Origin: Rhodobium gokarnense
GTDB taxonomy: Bacteria; Pseudomonadota; Alphaproteobacteria; Rhizobiales; Rhodobiaceae
Length of the DNA: 64,000 nt
Direction: 5' to 3'
NCBI RefSeq assembly: GCF_025961475.1
Contig: NZ_JAOQNS010000012.1
Location: 146,969 to 210,968 of the forward strand
In this document: positions 1,464 through 60,981 of the stretch, one piece after another
How the letters are laid out: each line of letters begins with the position of its first letter
How positions within the stretch are numbered: position 1 is the stretch's first letter
The notes under the pieces: generated by a model
Database searches by the model: none
Told to the model about the DNA's origin: nothing
The model's input: the letters and a program-made list of their open reading frames with translations, nothing else
Translations under genes and position numbers: made by a program

Positions 1464-2839
1464 CGCCGTACCTCCCAGGTGGTTCCCTCCGGCCCGTCCT
1501 TGAGGACGATGCCGCTTGCGGCAAGGTCGTCGCGGATGCGGTCGGCCTCGGCAAAGTCTTTCCCGGCGCGCGCCGTCCGGCGGGCCTCGATGAGGCGCTC
1601 GATTTCGCTTGCATCGACCTCCGGCTCGGCGGCGGTGCGGGCGGTCCAGTCGCTCGCGGTCTCTTCCAGAAGGCCGATGAGGTTGGCGCTTGCCTTCAGG
1701 GACGCCGCCCCCTCCCCGCCCTTTGCCGCGGCGCGAAGGCCATGGAGCGCGGCGATCGCCTTCGGCGTGTTGAGGTCGTCGGAGAGCGCGGCAACGACCT
1801 CCGCGTCGGGCTCGGCCGCCGGAGCGGCATCGCCGATAGCATCGTACCACCCATCGAGGATCTTTGCCGTCTCGGTGAGCCCCTTTGCCGTCCAGTCGAT
1901 GGGCTGGCGATAGTGCGTACGCAGCATGTTGAGGCGCAGGACCTCGCCGGGCCAGTCCTTCAACAGGTCGTGGATGGTGATGAAGTTGCCCAGCGACTTC
2001 GACATCTTCTCGCCTTCGACCTGCAGGAAGCCGTTGTGGAGCCAGTAATTGGCCATCACGTCGGTGCCGTGGCAGCAGCGCGACTGGGCGATCTCGTTCT
2101 CATGGTGCGGGAACTGCAGGTCGATGCCGCCGCCATGGATGTCGAATTCCTTGCCGAGATGCTTCCAGCTCATCGCCGAGCATTCCAGGTGCCAGCCCGG
2201 ACGGCCGCGGCCCCAGGGGCTGTCCCAGCCGGGCTCGCCGTCCGCCGACGGCTTCCACAGGACGAAGTCCATGGCGTCCTTCTTGTAGGGCGCGACCTCG
2301 ACCCGGGCACCGGCCTGCATCTCATCGAGGGACCGCCGCGACAGCCGCCCGTAATCGTCCATGGACGGCACGTCGAAGAGGACATGGCCGTCGGCGGCGT
2401 AGGCGTGGCCGTTTTCCACCAGCTTCTCGACCATCGCGATCATTTCCGCGATGTGCTCCGTCGCCCGTGGCTCGACGGTCGGCCGCAGCACGTTGAGGGC
2501 GTCGATGTCCTCGTGGTAGACGCGCGCGGTCTCTTCGGTCAACTCGCGGATGGAGATGCCGCGTTCGGCGGCGCGGGCGTTGATCTTGTCGTCGACGTCG
2601 GTGATGTTGCGCACATAGGTGACGTGGTCGGCGCCATAGAGGTACCGCAAGAGCCGGAAAAGGACGTCGAAGACGATGGCCGGGCGCGCATTGCCGATAT
2701 GGGCGAAGTCGTAGACCGTCGGCCCGCAGACATACATGCGCACATTCGCCGGATCGATCGGCGAAAACGCTTCCTTTTCCCGGCTCAACGTATTGTAGAG
2801 CTTCAGGCTCCTGGCGCCGGTATTGTGCCCGTCTGGCAT
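1460..2839 (-). CDS. cysS: cysteinyl-tRNA synthetase
   Basis: A 459-residue class I aminoacyl-tRNA synthetase that charges tRNA-Cys in the cytosol. Visible marks are the zinc-site Cys in YVCGPTVYD (Cys38), the HIGN motif at residues 47-50, the WHLECSAM zinc/active-site segment, [15 protein letters not shown], and KMSKSLGN. Length matches bacterial CysRS. It is the first gene of a tight leftward cluster with the VOC, GFA and cimA genes. Confidence 0.97.
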
Positions 2840-3171
2840 GACTCACCCCTTGCCGGCTGACCGGGGCGTTCGCTTTTCGTCATGGAGTCGAAGGAACGGC
2901 CGCAGCCAGCGTGATCGCTAGCCGTCGATAATCTTGCAGATAATGCAGGTCGCCGAAGTCGGCGTGGCCGTGTTCATAGCCATCGTTTTGCCGATTTCGC
3001 GGTCAAGGTCAAGGCGCAATTGCCGCAGTGTCACCTTTGGTCGCTCCGTGGCACTAATACTTAACGTGGTGTTAACTGCCATGAACGATTCCTGAATGGC
3101 GATCTCAGCGCGAATTCAGGCGCGGTGCGCTATCCCTTCCGGCGTTCACTGCGTATCAGGAGGTCCAGCAG
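2840..3171 (+). other. intergenic region with CtrA-type box
   Basis: A non-coding 332-bp gap between the divergent cysS and the small membrane protein gene. The left part shows no feature I can name. The right part contains the CtrA-like box at 3061-3076, a GATTC (GANTC, CcrM-type) site near 3087, and a clear AGGAGG ribosome-binding site just before the ATG at 3172. Confidence 0.6.
3061..3076. promoter_or_regulatory. candidate CtrA-binding site
   Basis: TTAACGTGGTGTTAAC fits the alphaproteobacterial CtrA full-site consensus TTAA-N7-TTAAC exactly, 96 bp before the start of the 93-residue membrane protein gene. A GATTC site lies about 11 bp downstream, as is common in cell-cycle promoters. CtrA control is inference from the motif. 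Confidence 0.5.
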
Positions 3172-3453
3172 ATGTCCGTTCGAGCCGCCCACGCGATGCC
3201 GACATTCTCGTCCGAAAGTCCCGTTCATGTGCTTGCGCGCGGCGAGCGCCGGCGCGGCGCGCGCGCCAGCGACTTTGCCAGGATCGCGCTCGTCGCCATC
3301 GTGTTCGCCGCGTTCTTCGCCGGGCCGGCGGCCTATGTCTCCATGGCCGACAAGGGCAACGCGCAAAAGACCTTCGCGGAGGCGCAGAGCGCCGTCTGCC
3401 AGACCTCCCAGGACCAATGCGGCGACATCGTCGGCTCCATCAAGAAACCCTGA
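3172..3453 (+). CDS. small single-TM protein of unknown function
   Basis: A 93-residue protein preceded by a strong AGGAGG ribosome-binding site 6-7 nt before the ATG. Residues 1-35 are Arg/Ala-rich and polar, residues about 36-57 form one hydrophobic segment (IALVAIVFAAFFAGPAAYV), and the tail is polar with two cysteines (AVCQTSQDQCGD) that would be periplasmic if the positive-inside rule holds. I do not recognise a family. The CtrA-type box upstream suggests cell-cycle or motility-linked expression, but nothing in the protein confirms that. Convergent with the CreA gene. Confidence 0.6.
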   Translation: MSVRAAHAMPTFSSESPVHVLARGERRRGARASDFARIALVAIVFAAFFAGPAAYVSMADKGNAQKTFAEAQSAVCQTSQDQCGDIVGSIKKP

Positions 3454-3525
3454 CGCAAAACGGAGCCCGGTGTCCCGGACGCCGTCTCTTTTTCCCATTG
3501 AAAATTCGATACGCCGGGGCCCCGC

Positions 3526-53497: not shown

Positions 53498-53559
53498 GGA
53501 CGAGTTTCTATTGACTCGGTACCCGTCGACCTAAAAATGTTTACTACACATAAGAATAG

Positions 53560-55602
53560 TTGGTGAATTCAACGCTCACTGAGGCTCTTCCCGTGCAGCA
53601 AATTGAAGTGAAAGTTGAAAACGATCATATTCAGCGGCTTACTACCGCAAAGCCGATTGCGGCTATTTCAGAACTGATTTGGAATGCTTATGACGCTGAT
53701 GCACAAGAAGTAAGAGTTGAACTTGAAGGAGGTCAACTAACAAAACTTGGCTTGATCCGTATTGTCGACAACGGCACGGGCATTCCGAGTGATGAAGTGA
53801 ATACGTTGTTCCAATCTCTCGGCGGTTCTTGGAAAAAGCTCGCAGTTAAGACTGATCGTGGCCGATGGATCCACGGCGAAAAGGGTCAAGGCCGCTTCAA
53901 GGCTTTTGCTCTCGGAGAGCGCGTGACGTGGGTTTCGCGCCACGCAGGAAAGAAATTCTCCATCAGCGGCGACAAGTCCGATTTGAAGCGCTTCTCAATT
54001 TCAGATTCCGTCTCAACTCAAAATACTGGCTGCACAGTCGAGATTGAGAGTGTAATTCGCGATTTTGAGATTTGGGCCAAAGATGGTTTTACTGAGCATC
54101 TGCGCGACGTATTCGCCCTGAAACTATATGAAGACCCCAATTTTCGGATTATCTATGATGGCGAGCAGATTGAGACTGCCGAAGCCATCAAAGACGTGAC
54201 GCATTACGACGTCACGACCTTTAGTGAAGACGGCCATGAATACAAGGCGACTCTGGATATTATCGAGTGGCAGAAAAGGGTCGAACGAAAACTGATGCTT
54301 TGCCTACCAGGCCGTTTTAGTTTCCATTCGATGGCACCGGGCATCCACGCGCGCGGATTCGACTTCACAGCCTATCTGACCGCCGACCAGTTTCAGCATC
54401 TTGCAGACGACAACACTGAAGGATTAGTTGAGCTTGATCCACCGTCGATGGCTCTCGTTGAAGCCTCCAAGGTGAAGTTGAGGGAGCACTTTCGCGAACG
54501 GGAAGCAGAGCGCTCGCGCAGTAAGATTCAAGAGTGGAAAGACTCTAAAATCTACCCTTATGAAGGCAAAGCCTCTGATCTAATCGAAGTCAATGAAAGG
54601 CAGATTTTCGATGTCGTCGCCCTGAATTTGGCCGATTACAGCCCCGAGTTCGAGAAGACCCCGTCCAAACAGCAAAAACTTATCCTCCAACTCGTCAAGG
54701 CAGCCATAGAGACCGGGCCCGGCGCCTTACCATCCATTTTGGAAAAAGTCGTTGACCTGCCAAAAGGCAAGCAGGAAGAGTTGGCCGATCTCCTACGGAA
54801 GACCTCACTGACGGCCGTCATTAATGCAGCGAAGGCTGTAACCGACCGGTTAGAATTTCTGCGAGCACTGCAAATTTTGATATTCGAGGCGAACTCAAAA
54901 CGCCAATTGCTAGAACGCTCACAGCTTCACCGCGTAATCGCGCAGGAAACTTGGATTTTTGGTGAGCAATTCAACTTGATGAATGACGACGAGGATTTAT
55001 CGGCCGTTCTTCGCAGCCATATCGAACTCCTAGGTAGCGACAGTGATGAAGGTACTCAGCGGGAGCACCTTGCGCCCAACGCCCCCGTACTGGATGTGAA
55101 CGGAAAGGCGGCGATCGTCGACCTGATGCTCTCCTGCCGAGTGCCTACACCCACGGATGACGAGCGCAAGCACCTTGTAGTCGAATTGAAAAGACCGAGC
55201 CAAAGGCTCAACGAGGAGGTAATCAACCAGGTTAAGAAATACGCGAAAGCGGTGGCCTTCGATGATCGATTCCACCATTCGAACGTCGAATGGGATTTCG
55301 TCGCTGTTGCCAATCGCTTCACGAAAGACGCCGAGCTTGAGGCACGTCAGGCCGGCAAGCCTCACGGTTTGGTGCTCGAATTGGACGATCCGATCAAGAT
55401 CAGGGTTTGGGCGAGGACTTGGGGCGAGATCATCCAAGAGGCGGAAGGTCGGCTTACCTTCTACAAGCGGCGCCTTGAATATCAGGCGAACGACGAGGAA
55501 GCGCTGCGATACCTTCGCACGATCAATGCGGATTATCTAAGCGATGAAGTCAAAGAACGCATCTCTGCGCTTGATGCGGAAGAAGAAGCCGCCGCAGATT
55601 AG
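53560..55602 (+). CDS. GHKL ATPase with C-terminal PD-(D/E)XK nuclease-like domain
   Basis: A 680-residue soluble protein, base composition clearly AT-richer than its neighbours. The N-terminal GHKL (Hsp90-like) ATPase has the N box ISELIWNAYDADA (Glu38, Asn42), G1 box VDNGTGIP (Asp70) and lid GEKGQGRFKA. The middle (about 320-510) is helical. The C-terminal region shows VDLML (Asp521), VVELKRP (Glu542, Lys544) and NQVKKYAKAV (Gln557), the D - ExK - Q order of PD-(D/E)XK nucleases and reminiscent of the Shedu-type (DUF4263) end. Start is TTG at 53560 or GTG at 53563; the ribosome-binding site is weak. It resembles prophage-exclusion or restriction-like GHKL-nuclease proteins; specific system unknown. 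Confidence 0.72.
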   Translation: MVNSTLTEALPVQQIEVKVENDHIQRLTTAKPIAAISELIWNAYDADAQEVRVELEGGQLTKLGLIRIVDNGTGIPSDEVNTLFQSLGGSWKKLAVKTDRGRWIHGEKGQGRFKAFALGERVTWVSRHAGKKFSISGDKSDLKRFSISDSVSTQNTGCTVEIESVIRDFEIWAKDGFTEHLRDVFALKLYEDPNFRIIYDGEQIETAEAIKDVTHYDVTTFSEDGHEYKATLDIIEWQKRVERKLMLCLPGRFSFHSMAPGIHARGFDFTAYLTADQFQHLADDNTEGLVELDPPSMALVEASKVKLREHFREREAERSRSKIQEWKDSKIYPYEGKASDLIEVNERQIFDVVALNLADYSPEFEKTPSKQQKLILQLVKAAIETGPGALPSILEKVVDLPKGKQEELADLLRKTSLTAVINAAKAVTDRLEFLRALQILIFEANSKRQLLERSQLHRVIAQETWIFGEQFNLMNDDEDLSAVLRSHIELLGSDSDEGTQREHLAPNAPVLDVNGKAAIVDLMLSCRVPTPTDDERKHLVVELKRPSQRLNEEVINQVKKYAKAVAFDDRFHHSNVEWDFVAVANRFTKDAELEARQAGKPHGLVLELDDPIKIRVWARTWGEIIQEAEGRLTFYKRRLEYQANDEEALRYLRTINADYLSDEVKERISALDAEEEAAAD

Positions 55603-55742
55603 GCGCCGGCCGACGGGATTGCTCAGAACGGGTCTGTTACTCACCGGACTTCAGTCTTTTGGCATTTGCTCTCTAGCTGCCAAGCATGACGCCGAGCGTT
55701 GAACACCGGCTAATATACGCCCGCAGAGTAGAACTCAACCCC

Positions 55743-56897: not shown

Positions 56898-58961
56898 ATG
56901 GATGCCCCGACCGATTCGCCCGCCGATCCCCTCGCCGGCCTCAACGCCGAACAGCGCCAGGCCGTGGAGCATGGTGGGGGAAAAATCGCCGGGCCCCTGC
57001 TGATCATCGCCGGCGCCGGCACCGGCAAGACCAACACACTCGCCCACCGGGTCGCGAACCTCATCGTTGCCGGCGCCGATCCGCGCCGCATCCTGCTGAT
57101 GACTTTCTCGCGCCGCGCGGCGGCGGAAATGACGCGCCGGGTGGAGCGCATCGCCGGCGAGGTCATGGGACCGAAGGCAACCGTCCTCACCGAGGGCCTC
57201 ACCTTCGCCGGCACCTTCCATTCGATCGGCGCCCGGCTCCTGCGCGAATACGCCCCTGCGGTCGGCCTCGACCCCAACTTTTCGATCCACGACCGGGAGG
57301 ATTCGGCGGACCTGATGAACCTCGTCCGCCACGAGCTCGGCCTTTCCCAATCCGCGACCCGGTTTCCGAAAAAAAACACCTGCCTGCAGATCTATTCGCG
57401 CACGGTGAACGCCGAGGCCGAGCTGCAAGCCGTGCTCGACAAGCACTTTCCCTGGTGCGCGGGCTTTGCGGAGGAGCTGAAAGCCCTCTTCGGCGCCTAT
57501 GTGGCGGCCAAGCAGGCGGAGAACGTGCTGGACTATGACGACCTCTTGCTGTGGTGGGGCGAGATGTGCGCGGAGCCGGCGCTGGCGGAAGAAATCGGCG
57601 GGCGCTTCGACCATGTGCTGGTCGACGAATACCAGGACACCAACCGCTTGCAGGCGCGGATCCTGACCCGGCTGAAGCCGGACGGGCGGGGCGTCACCGT
57701 CGTCGGCGACGACGCCCAGTCGATCTACGGGTTCCGGGCCGCGGAAGTGCGCAACATCCTCGATTTTCCTGACCTCTTTTCGCCGCGCGCGGACATCGTC
57801 ACGCTCGACCGTAATTATCGCTCGACCGACGCGATCCTGGAGGCCGCCAACGCCGTCATCGCCGAGGCCCCGGAGCGCTTCACCAAGAACCTCTGGTCGA
57901 GCCGGACCTCTCTCGCCAAGCCGCGCATCGTCACGGTCAAGGACGACGCGGGCCAGGCCGATTTCGTCTGCGAGAGCGTGCTTGCGGCGCACGAGGAAGG
58001 CACCGCCCTGAAGCACCAGGCCGTGCTCTTTCGCGCCTCGCACCATTCCGGCGCGCTGGAGATCGAGCTGACAAGACGCAACATCCCGTTCGTGAAGTTC
58101 GGCGGCCTCAAATTCCTCGATGCCGCCCATGTCAAGGACGTGCTCGCGGTCCTGCGCCTCGCAGAAAACCCGCGCGACCGGGTCGCCGCGTTCCGCGCCT
58201 TCCAGCTCCTTCCCGGCATCGGCCCGACGAGCGCCGGCGCCGCGCTGGAGGCCATGGGCCAGCTCGAGGACCCCGCCCTCGGCCTGCAGCTCTTTCGCCC
58301 GCCGAAGAGGGCGCAGGCCGACTGGCCGGCCTTTGCCGAGCTCTTCTCACGCTTGCGCGCAAAACCCGGCTGGCCGGCGGACCTGGAAGCCGTGCGCCTG
58401 TGGTACGAGCCGCATCTGGAGCGCCTCCACGAGGACGCGCGGATGCGCCGGGCGGACCTTTCCCAGCTCGAACAGATCGCCGGCAACTATCCCTCGCGCG
58501 AGCGCTTCCTCACCGACCTCACCCTCGATCCGCCGTCGGCCACCAGCGACGAGGCCGGCCCGCCGCTCCTCGACGAGGATTTTTTGATCCTTTCCACGAT
58601 CCATTCGGCCAAGGGCCAGGAATGGTCCAACGTCTTCGTCCTCAACGCCGTCGACGGCTGCATCCCCTCGGACCTTGCCGTCGGCGAGCGCGACGACATC
58701 GAAGAAGAACGCCGCCTCCTCTATGTGGCCATGACCCGCGCCAAGGATTCTTTGGCCCTCATCACCCCCCAACGCTTCTACGTCCAGGGCCAACGCGGCG
58801 ACCGCCACGTCTATGCGTCAAGGACGCGGTTCATCCCGGAGGGGATTCTGGGGCGGTTCGAGCAGGGGGCCTGGCCGAGGGCGGAGACGGCGGGGGAGAC
58901 GGCGCCGCGAGGGGCGGTGCGGGTGGATTTGAAGGGGAGGATGCGCGGGATGTGGGGGTAG
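56898..58961 (+). CDS. UvrD/Rep-type ATP-dependent DNA helicase
   Basis: A 687-residue superfamily 1A 3'-5' helicase. Q motif LNAEQRQAV (15-23), Walker A AGAGTGKT (38-45), motif II VDEYQDTN, motif III GDDAQSIYGFR, motif IV LDRNYRS, motif V TIHSAKGQEW and motif VI LLYVAMTRAKDSL are all present. Accessory 1B/2B domains are shorter than in UvrD, and the C-terminal tail is basic. Base composition is host-like. It probably acts in DNA repair or replication restart. It lies between two AT-richer genes but shows no coding overlap with them. Confidence 0.92.
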   Translation: MDAPTDSPADPLAGLNAEQRQAVEHGGGKIAGPLLIIAGAGTGKTNTLAHRVANLIVAGADPRRILLMTFSRRAAAEMTRRVERIAGEVMGPKATVLTEGLTFAGTFHSIGARLLREYAPAVGLDPNFSIHDREDSADLMNLVRHELGLSQSATRFPKKNTCLQIYSRTVNAEAELQAVLDKHFPWCAGFAEELKALFGAYVAAKQAENVLDYDDLLLWWGEMCAEPALAEEIGGRFDHVLVDEYQDTNRLQARILTRLKPDGRGVTVVGDDAQSIYGFRAAEVRNILDFPDLFSPRADIVTLDRNYRSTDAILEAANAVIAEAPERFTKNLWSSRTSLAKPRIVTVKDDAGQADFVCESVLAAHEEGTALKHQAVLFRASHHSGALEIELTRRNIPFVKFGGLKFLDAAHVKDVLAVLRLAENPRDRVAAFRAFQLLPGIGPTSAGAALEAMGQLEDPALGLQLFRPPKRAQADWPAFAELFSRLRAKPGWPADLEAVRLWYEPHLERLHEDARMRRADLSQLEQIAGNYPSRERFLTDLTLDPPSATSDEAGPPLLDEDFLILSTIHSAKGQEWSNVFVLNAVDGCIPSDLAVGERDDIEEERRLLYVAMTRAKDSLALITPQRFYVQGQRGDRHVYASRTRFIPEGILGRFEQGAWPRAETAGETAPRGAVRVDLKGRMRGMWG

Positions 58962-59031
58962 GAAAGAAATAGGACATAGTGGCGATCGTTCGTTAAATAA
59001 AACCCCGACTATGTTGGCCTCGCACTTTGAT

Positions 59032-60699
59032 CTAACCCGACCTATGTCTAAACAATAAGCCTATAGGTGATTTTTTTAATTCTTTGTGCGCACCCTTCAA
59101 CTCTCTGAAACGGGCTGGAATCTGGCGTAACTTCGGCACATCGATGAATTGATTGACGCAGAAGCTGGCAGCGCCGAACGTCGGCGTGCCAGTGACAATC
59201 GACGCAATGTCAATAGCACCTGCGACGAGCATTGTCCCAATATCGTGTCCCGCGAACTTTACCGTTTTACGCCGAAGCGACTGTACTTCTTTTGTGTGCT
59301 TTTCAAATGCATCTCTAATATTCTCAACAATCTGATCGCTTGCCCTAAAAAAATTATTCGGATTGGCTTGAGAAAGCTCATCTACGCCTTGAGAAAGAAC
59401 CGACCGGATTTCTTGAAATGCACCACTCCGACGCATCTCAATTATCGCCTCAGGAGGAATGTTGCCAAGCCACTTTTCGTCCGAAGTCGACGCATGTTGC
59501 AGGCCCTTGACCATGTGTAGATGAACATCACTTTCTGGCTCTACGGCAGAATTGTATTCCAGTTTCCAATTGAAGTATTCCCACGACGTCGGAGCATCAA
59601 CAATTGGTACGCCACCAAGATATCTGCTCTTGAAAAGCAAATCGGTAGCCTGACCCATTCTTCCAAAACACTGGATCGCGACCATCGCACCGGCATCTAA
59701 GGCACTTCCAAACGTGCCCGACCAGTCAGTCTCGATAGACCGCCTGATTTGGCTCTCCAAGTCTTCGGTCCATTCGGTATCAAAGAGAAGCCGGCTGGGC
59801 TCCACGAGCGAACTAACGACTTGATCCGGCGTATTTAAGGGCTCTACAAACTCCCACAGCTCGGTTTCTTCGGTGAAAGTTCTCCCAAACAACCTTGATG
59901 CGTGTTTGAGAGCGTCGGCGGCAGCAACGCTTTGTAAAAATTCATTCTCATCCGCATCAATAGTGGACTTAAATGGAACCAGCGTTACGATGGGGACACC
60001 GACGTCAGCTTCCGCAAGATTCTTATACTGAAGCACATTGAGCGCATGCTTCACTAATAAGAATGCCTTATTTGCAGGCTCGGCGTGCTGAAAAATAGGG
60101 CGGCTGTGTAAAAACGGGTCTGAAAGAACAATCGTATCGATATATAAACTTAGACTACTCGATATATTATGTTTATGACTAGGGAATAAATCGCCCCCAA
60201 AAACACCTTTTGTTCCCCGAAGGTCTTGGAGGTGGTAGTACGCTGAATCAGCTACGTCTTTCCAGAAACTCTCCAGAAACTCTATTATCCTTGGCGCATT
60301 ATCTGAAACATCATCGACAAATTCTTGACTGCGAATCGCTAAGCTTGCAAATTCATAAGCATTCAACCCACGATCATCAGCTTCTTTTTTCAAAAATCCT
60401 AAATTTTTTTCAATAGTTTCAAAATAATAGGAAGAAATATCAAATAAAGATATCGCTTGCTTGGCTTGCTCCCTTTCATGAACATGCGCTGCCATAAGCG
60501 CCATCGAACGAATTCGTCCGTCGACGGTATCTAAATCGATGGTTCCATTGGGGCGATATCTGATTTTTTCCAAGCTTTCTTTGGTCTCTTGCCAAAGATG
60601 TTCAGAAATGTGAATTTTCCCCTCTTCTGCCATCAGCTTTAAAACGTTTAGACGCCATTGCATTTCCGCCTCAGTTTCATCATTGGATTCGGCAGCCAT
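59032..60699 (-). CDS. unknown 555-residue protein, AT-rich
   Basis: A 555-residue protein, start ATG at 60699 (MAAESNDETEAEMQW). It is markedly AT-richer than the flanking genes. The N-terminal 130 residues are helical and charged. The centre has LYIDTIVLSDPFLHSR and KAFLLVKHALNVLQYKNLAEADVGVPIVTLVPF, and later SWEYFNWKLEY. Near residues 480-520 a hydrophobic Gly/Ala-rich stretch (DIGTMLVAGAIDIASIVTGT, then FGAASFCVNQF) could insert into a membrane, followed by a basic tail. No catalytic motif or family recognised. Convergent with the helicase gene. A candidate defence, toxin or mobile-island gene by composition and context only. Confidence 0.7.
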   Translation of the reverse strand: MAAESNDETEAEMQWRLNVLKLMAEEGKIHISEHLWQETKESLEKIRYRPNGTIDLDTVDGRIRSMALMAAHVHEREQAKQAISLFDISSYYFETIEKNLGFLKKEADDRGLNAYEFASLAIRSQEFVDDVSDNAPRIIEFLESFWKDVADSAYYHLQDLRGTKGVFGGDLFPSHKHNISSSLSLYIDTIVLSDPFLHSRPIFQHAEPANKAFLLVKHALNVLQYKNLAEADVGVPIVTLVPFKSTIDADENEFLQSVAAADALKHASRLFGRTFTEETELWEFVEPLNTPDQVVSSLVEPSRLLFDTEWTEDLESQIRRSIETDWSGTFGSALDAGAMVAIQCFGRMGQATDLLFKSRYLGGVPIVDAPTSWEYFNWKLEYNSAVEPESDVHLHMVKGLQHASTSDEKWLGNIPPEAIIEMRRSGAFQEIRSVLSQGVDELSQANPNNFFRASDQIVENIRDAFEKHTKEVQSLRRKTVKFAGHDIGTMLVAGAIDIASIVTGTPTFGAASFCVNQFIDVPKLRQIPARFRELKGAHKELKKSPIGLLFRHRSG

Positions 60700-60981
60700 G
60701 GAAATACCTCATCGACAATTTGTTGTCATATGCCCAAATCGCCTTTTGTCTTGCAACCAACTTGAATCCAATAATTCTTTGAAACGCTGTCGGCGAAGAC
60801 GAATAAGAACAATTTATCGATTAGATTTGTGGTAATCAACTGGGACACACTGTTAGCGGCCGCAATCGCAAATAAACGCCTGATGCCTTCGATTGTCGAT
60901 TGGTACGGCCTCCGCCTCCCCTCCCCTTGACCCGACTAAGCGAACACGCCACAGCTCGGCCTTTGCGCTGGGGAGAACTCT

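Follow-up and report, generated by a model that had tools for sequence, protein, structure and literature searches.

A GHKL ATPase fused to a predicted Shedu-like nuclease in Rhodobium gokarnense: a candidate single-gene anti-phage defence enzyme

The window analysed here is a stretch of 64,000 nucleotides from Rhodobium gokarnense (contig NZ_JAOQNS010000012.1, positions 146,969 to 210,968 of the forward strand), and its subject is an intact, uninterrupted open reading frame (ORF) on the plus strand (53560-55602; 680 residues from TTG) that joins an N-terminal GHKL ATPase to a C-terminal predicted PD-(D/E)XK nuclease. We consider it probable that the gene encodes a single-gene anti-phage defence enzyme, likely mobile, in which an ATP-driven GHKL dimer would clamp on foreign DNA and thereby switch on a Shedu-like nuclease. 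The case is built on the fusion itself, the conservation of its ATPase and nuclease residues, its patchy distribution and the different filling of its insertion slot in a congener, and it supports the overall interpretation of a first-pass annotation of this DNA. Residue numbers refer to the 680-residue form; 11 is to be subtracted for the 669-residue form introduced below.

A protein search scored 7997 candidates, of which at least 491 passed E 1e-3; among the 120 matches listed (its own entry aside), identities to the window protein are 69-87%. A genome scan found 79 homologous loci. Conservation was read from an alignment (A3) of 76 rows, 73 of them different, which comprises the window protein, 22 proteins and 53 loci, the other rows being 21-85% identical to the window protein. 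The 26 loci outside A3 are close rows already represented, interrupted, cut or short frames, and nine nuclease-less loci. E38, N42, D45, D70, G72, K92, G111, R112, W465, K544, P546, W578 and W621 are present in all 76 rows, E452, D521, E542, Q557 and Y561 in 75, and G109 likewise in 75 with a gap in the remaining row. The first-pass annotation had called the GHKL boxes intact and had placed N42, D521, E542-x-K544 and Q557 exactly where they are found. Because their conservation (75-76 of 76) extends over such diverse rows, the named residues are, as judged from the alignment, right and under selection rather than due to chance.

The N-terminal half is recognised by Pfam HATPase_c_3 (residues 34-141, E 6e-15). 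A first AlphaFold2 model, based on 20 close homologues, had a poor C-terminus (predicted local distance difference test 57.9) and was set aside; the model used was computed from the 76-row alignment (79.6; predicted template modelling score 0.55). Residues 18-326 are modelled as a MORC/Hsp90-type ATPase, as indicated by alignment to MORC3 and TRAP1, and the proposed kinship to MutL/MORC/Hsp90-type ATPases is seen in both structure model and sequence. The NCBIfam MutL family TIGR00585 matches residues 31-85 with 38 bits, short of its cut-off of 180 bits. A difference from MORC is the absence of its S5 motif GhXhhpXXRhl, which occurs in none of the 76 rows of A3. We know of no MORC, Hsp90 or MutL ATPase that is fused to a Shedu-like nuclease.

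For the C-terminal half, the model predicts a strand (522-528), a second strand with E542 (535-543), a helix with Q557 (552-567), a third strand (576-584) and more strands, an order that is expected for a PD-(D/E)XK core. It was compared by hhalign with A4, a set of nine SduA_C proteins of 283-459 residues chosen from 20 SduA_C loci. Full-length rows gave a match of 89% (E 2e-6); the C-terminal alignment gave 73%, and 82% (score 42.2) was obtained when the Shedu side was trimmed to its C-terminus. The alignments pair W-F-G, D521, E542-x-K544 and Q557 of both families. Against the score of 42.2, the maximum of 60 column shuffles was 17.3 and the reversed profile gave 14.0, while a comparison set of HSDR_N_2 (eight of twelve extracted segments) scored 31.9, with a maximum of 18.4 in 60 shuffles. 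The C-terminal profile is thus closer to Shedu nucleases than to the HSDR_N_2 set and well above the 120 shuffles. By profile the domain appears to be a Shedu-like PD-(D/E)XK nuclease, and a non-nuclease fold, which the annotation had named as evidence to the contrary, was not borne out.

The gene is accessory and patchily distributed. It occurs in one of the three genomes searched in the family, and the two congener genomes searched gave no match. Some match exists in 66 of the 199 genomes of the order, but one of 640 residues or more is limited to six of them (the window genome and L113-L117); every other match is confined to the ATPase domain (residues 4-206). Of 227 Vibrio genomes, 21 contain a match to the A3 profile at E 1e-15, which spans the whole length in five at 752-782 bits and in seven at 266-305 bits and is restricted to the ATPase domain in the others. 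Relatives are also present in Actinomycetota, Bacillota, Planctomycetota and Verrucomicrobiota, and matches were found in 50 of 72,556 plasmid and two of 50,697 phage records. On plasmid NZ_CP123587 a homologue lies between virB11 and a conjugation/relaxase region, and in Pasteurella phage Pmp14 a 35% identical homologue (L186:6013-7971), annotated as hypothetical protein, sits amid tail genes. A quick gene tree, in which only Bacilli among the eight listed classes needs a single change, is by itself no proof of transfer. Core-housekeeping homologues, the other outcome named as contrary to the annotation, were not found to prevail: full-length homologues are rare (the six of 199) and have defence-type neighbours.

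The immediate surroundings of the gene are those of an insert. The flanks of congener G290 are 92-94% identical to the window up to 53499 and from 55741, and the slot between them holds a 749-residue fusion of a trypsin-like protease and a nonspecific endonuclease (Trypsin_2 and Endonuclease_NS; L110:4966-7215, minus strand). In the other congener, G291, the two flanks are on different contigs, which makes it uninformative on the slot. DNA similarity to 15 close loci of other genera is restricted to the gene and its leader, the blast match beginning at 53534-53565 in eight, at 53590-53594 in five and later in two; the conserved unit of these loci is the gene alone. A composition unlike that of the host had been noted before, and indeed the G+C content of the gene is 0.511 against 0.666 in the flanks, and 0.564 against 0.855-0.878 at third codon positions in three neighbour genes. 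We regard it as likely that the gene has moved between bacteria. G290 carries two copies of the following gene's 3' end (L110:7363-7500; 138 bp, 92% to the window), possibly a trace of cargo entry.

The reading frame reported by the first-pass annotation is present and intact, but its start at TTG 53560 gives way to GTG 53593 as the more likely one, with a product of 669 residues. This preference follows from a GAGG motif (53581-53584) that ends 8 nt upstream of the GTG, from the length of 669 residues in 42 of the 49 nearest homologues (P0002-P0050) and from the aligned close homologues, which mostly start at the same residue. The features of the locus are compiled in Table 1.

Table 1. Features of the ATPase-nuclease locus in window coordinates.
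Feature	Position	Strand	Remarks
Insertion slot	53500..55740	.	Synteny with congener G290 up to 53499 and again from 55741; different gene there
58-nt leader common to nearer homologous loci	53535..53592	+	GAGG 53581-53584, likely ribosome-binding site
GHKL ATPase-predicted nuclease fusion gene, 669 residues	53593..55602	+	Alternative TTG start 53560, 680 residues
GHKL ATP-binding domain, residues 18-190	53611..54129	+	E38, N42, D45, D70, G72, HGxxGxGR 105-112
S5-type transducer domain, residues 196-283	54145..54408	+	AlphaFold2 model; MORC3/TRAP1 alignment spans 18-326
Long helix and helical middle domain, residues 294-442	54439..54885	+	By model
Predicted PD-(D/E)XK nuclease domain, residues 452-640	54913..55479	+	E452, W465-x-F-G468, D521, E542-L-K544, P546, Q557, W578, W621

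Among known systems, an experimental precedent is VcSduA of V. cholerae (Shedu type I-D; PMC12137116), a single gene with GHKL motifs I-IV in its N-terminal ATPase and a C-terminal PD-(D/E)XK domain, in which E27A and K557A each abolished protection. Compared by description, it resembles the present protein in this architecture and in the clamp-like middle domain of its authors' model, and the Glu that corresponds to E27 is likewise residue 27 of the 669-residue form. The Shedu type I-D features found here are the Shedu-related PD-(D/E)XK core, by profile, and a GHKL N-terminal domain predicted to be enzymatic. In VcSduA the spacing from E to K is 530 residues (27 to 557), compared with 495-520 across A3, and its nuclease is called DUF4263, while SduA_C matches none of the 43 members examined here. 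VcSduA was sought in Vibrio by Pfam family, alignment, residue spacing and a protein search with L137, and was not found; the latter returned 50 proteins with no V. cholerae label among the names listed. Loci L144-L149 were dropped as candidates, as by eye they belong to another GHKL group, like the HEF_HK proteins of PMC8011034. In a Vibrio locus (L094), an SduA_C gene (about 661-2046) is directly followed by an ORF (about 2028-3482; both on the plus strand) that by eye resembles a separate GHKL ATPase, a possible two-gene version of the ATPase-nuclease pairing.

The nuclease-bearing subset of paraMORC3, which is standalone, occurs mainly in proteobacteria and Bacteroidetes and combines GHKL and S5 domains with a C-terminal E-D-ExK domain of restriction-endonuclease fold (Iyer 2008, PMC2292703), is also similar by description. 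The GHKL motifs, an S5 domain without GhXhhpXXRhl, the E-D-ExK residues (E452, D521 and E542 in 75, K544 in all 76 rows) and the patchy occurrence are shared, but the relatives reported here reach the further phyla listed above. With classical Shedu (SduA, PF14082) the family shares, by hhalign, the order of W-x-F-G helix, D, E-x-K, P and Q; the nine SduA proteins used are too short for an ATPase-nuclease architecture, and the Pfam model misses the present family. Of the Pfam, NCBIfam and PADLOC models tried, none recognises the whole fusion protein; 43 members were scanned with SduA_C and NCBIfam, and the window protein alone with PADLOC and against the curated NCBIfam cut-offs. A literature search, which lay outside most subscription papers, found no study of this clade. 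The family thus appears to be a new relative of a known kind of defence enzyme, with VcSduA as its precedent and with features of paraMORC3.

A location of homologues near defence genes is in accordance with a survey of 172 neighbour ORFs. Seventeen close loci contributed 86 of these ORFs (L017 was omitted as a repeat of L002), and 145 of the 172 were scanned; the others fell outside length or residue limits, apart from one overlapping ORF. PADLOC at E 1e-10 gave, among the best 25 of 338 models, GajB (3), GajA (3), AriA (4), Aga_Nuclease (5), type I methyltransferase (4) and specificity subunit (3), and Pfam, among the best 25 of 147, pPIWI-associated nuclease (5), conjugation ATPase (4), phage integrase (3) and DDE transposase (3). 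Neighbours of homologues thus include Gabija and type I restriction genes, and on plasmid pGal_E78 a type ISP restriction gene is found beside a homologue. In five alphaproteobacterial loci (L004, L006-L009), a convergent gene of 264 residues with 81-93% mutual identity lies 20 bp downstream of the homologue (e.g. L004:12060-12851, minus strand); from their equal number we take these genes to be the pPIWI-associated nuclease (pP_pnuc) matches. A gene of the same size occupies the same place in a plasmid (L187:10057-10851, minus strand). The window lacks the 264-residue gene.

Several observations weigh against this interpretation. As control, ORFs were taken from 19 stretches of genomes of this order and 139 of 221 were scanned; they match 132 PADLOC models, with mad3 in six as opposed to three among the neighbours, and with single matches to CRISPR, DpdF and other models among the best 25. 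This control covers one order and the neighbours several phyla, and the tallies count models, not genes, for which reasons the neighbourhood is support but not proof. In the window itself, the adjoining genes encode a dehydrogenase and a product that Pfam does not match, and next comes a UvrD-like helicase gene (by eye); none of these is a known defence gene. At the C-terminus, Pfam leans to another PD-(D/E)XK family, because SduA_C/DUF4263 (PF14082) matches none of the 43 members at E 0.1 and HSDR_N_2 matches 29 of them (best E 4.5e-6; the window protein, at E 0.0097, is below the cut-off). The claimed relationship of the C-terminus to Shedu consequently stands by hhalign profile (73-89%) but not by Pfam, and the trimmings with 73% and 89% fall short of near-certainty. 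Whole-model fold searches return the ATPase half: the N-terminal domain fills the best 50 rows of each PDB list, among which no solved Shedu chain is found. The C-terminal alignment profile gave nothing convincing against PDB sequences (two matches up to E 10, best 0.047), and the predicted fold of this half comes from the model of the whole chain. Finally, nine of the 79 loci (L061, L065-L067, L070-L074) encode relatives of about 400 residues at similar identity (31-37%), which keep the ATPase motifs, end near residue 410 and lack the nuclease. Ten neighbour proteins from five of these loci were scanned with Pfam: seven are metabolic or housekeeping proteins (leucyl-tRNA synthetase, UbiA, a carboxylase subunit, beta-galactosidase, ATP:guanido phosphotransferase, a Clp-type AAA protein and RelA/SpoT) and three are unmatched. 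This branch beside housekeeping genes indicates that the ATPase module also has a life outside defence. The nuclease-less gene of L070 lies upstream of the guanido-phosphotransferase and Clp-type ATPase genes; the idea that such relatives are split restriction-modification operons was dropped, as their neighbours are metabolic, housekeeping or unmatched.

The protein might instead cleave or loop DNA as one subunit of a restriction-modification system whose methyltransferase partner is encoded elsewhere. BbrUII/HgiDII-type enzymes (NF050001) share a related GHKL ATPase domain, PADLOC REase_II models match the window protein within residues 24-151 with up to 26.5 bits, paraMORCs are linked to restriction-modification operons (Iyer 2008, PMC2292703), and a homologue on pGal_E78, a plasmid of Phaeobacter, has an overlap of 4 bp with a type ISP restriction/modification gene. 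However, the NF050001 match is confined to residues 34-164 and reaches 58 bits against a cut-off of 550, neither of the two flanking genes, to which the search for a methyltransferase was limited, encodes one by Pfam, the conserved unit is a lone gene, and the nuclease-bearing paraMORC3 proteins stand alone as well, all of which makes such a subunit improbable. We rate equally low an abortive-infection nuclease that kills or arrests the infected cell by cutting host DNA instead of clearing the phage. Nuclease effectors often act in this way, and the fusion of trypsin and nonspecific endonuclease in the congener slot has an architecture known from suicide systems; yet VcSduA protected cultures similarly robustly at all tested multiplicities of infection, which its authors read as direct targeting (PMC12137116).

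A MutL-like ATPase-nuclease for DNA repair or chromosome maintenance, with no role in defence, would agree with MutL as the best match to the ATPase domain in a single-sequence search of the PDB (E 0.0005), and with the nuclease-less relatives among housekeeping genes. It is harder to reconcile with a low-GC insert that is carried by plasmids and two phage records, is unmatched in the two congeners searched and lacks a full-length counterpart in 193 of the 199 genomes of the order, and we hold it to be very unlikely.

For the preferred reading, a single-gene defence enzyme, a mechanism can be outlined. In GHKL enzymes, ATP closes the dimer. By analogy, ATP would close a dimer of the present protein, its S5 domain would transmit this motion to the helical middle domain, foreign DNA would be captured in the closed clamp, and captured phage DNA would then be cut by the predicted Shedu-like nuclease. 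Candidate triggers are a phage modification, a phage protein or a DNA end, the last as reported for EcSduA, in which an N-terminal clamp binds a DNA end and this leads to nicking (PMC12904381).

Further insertions and GHKL proteins were observed apart from the family. The window contains a second low-GC insert (58961-60925) with a gene of 555 residues (59032-60699, minus strand; G+C 0.455); over roughly its first 70 residues there is a weak similarity to Avs1c (NCBIfam, 37.8 bits against a cut-off of 70). Between the corresponding flanks, G290 has two other ORFs (311 and 187 residues), and since it differs at both places the UvrD-like helicase gene lies between two differently filled slots. 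In L088 (1213-3237, minus strand) a different GHKL protein of 674 residues, with weak matches to SduA_C (23 bits) and PADLOC SduA (21 bits), is directly followed by a cytosine-5 DNA methyltransferase-like gene (by eye).

A broader interpretation is more speculative: the homologues may form a widespread, uncatalogued clade of clamp-nucleases in which an ATP-driven MORC/Hsp90-type gate, not a passive DNA-end clamp, licenses a Shedu-like nuclease. With the same gate occurring without the nuclease among Verrucomicrobia-type housekeeping genes, a single type of ATPase engine would be at work in immunity as well as in cell maintenance and could provide a bacterial model of MORC-style DNA capture. 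If true, the clade would represent a defence family of at least 491 sequence clusters (E 1e-3) from several phyla, without a model of its own among the matching Pfam and NCBIfam families. Shedu-like nucleases would then be gated by a genuine DNA-capture ATPase in many lineages, and a simple single-gene system would make the coupling of ATP and DNA in a GHKL/MORC clamp readable as phage protection.
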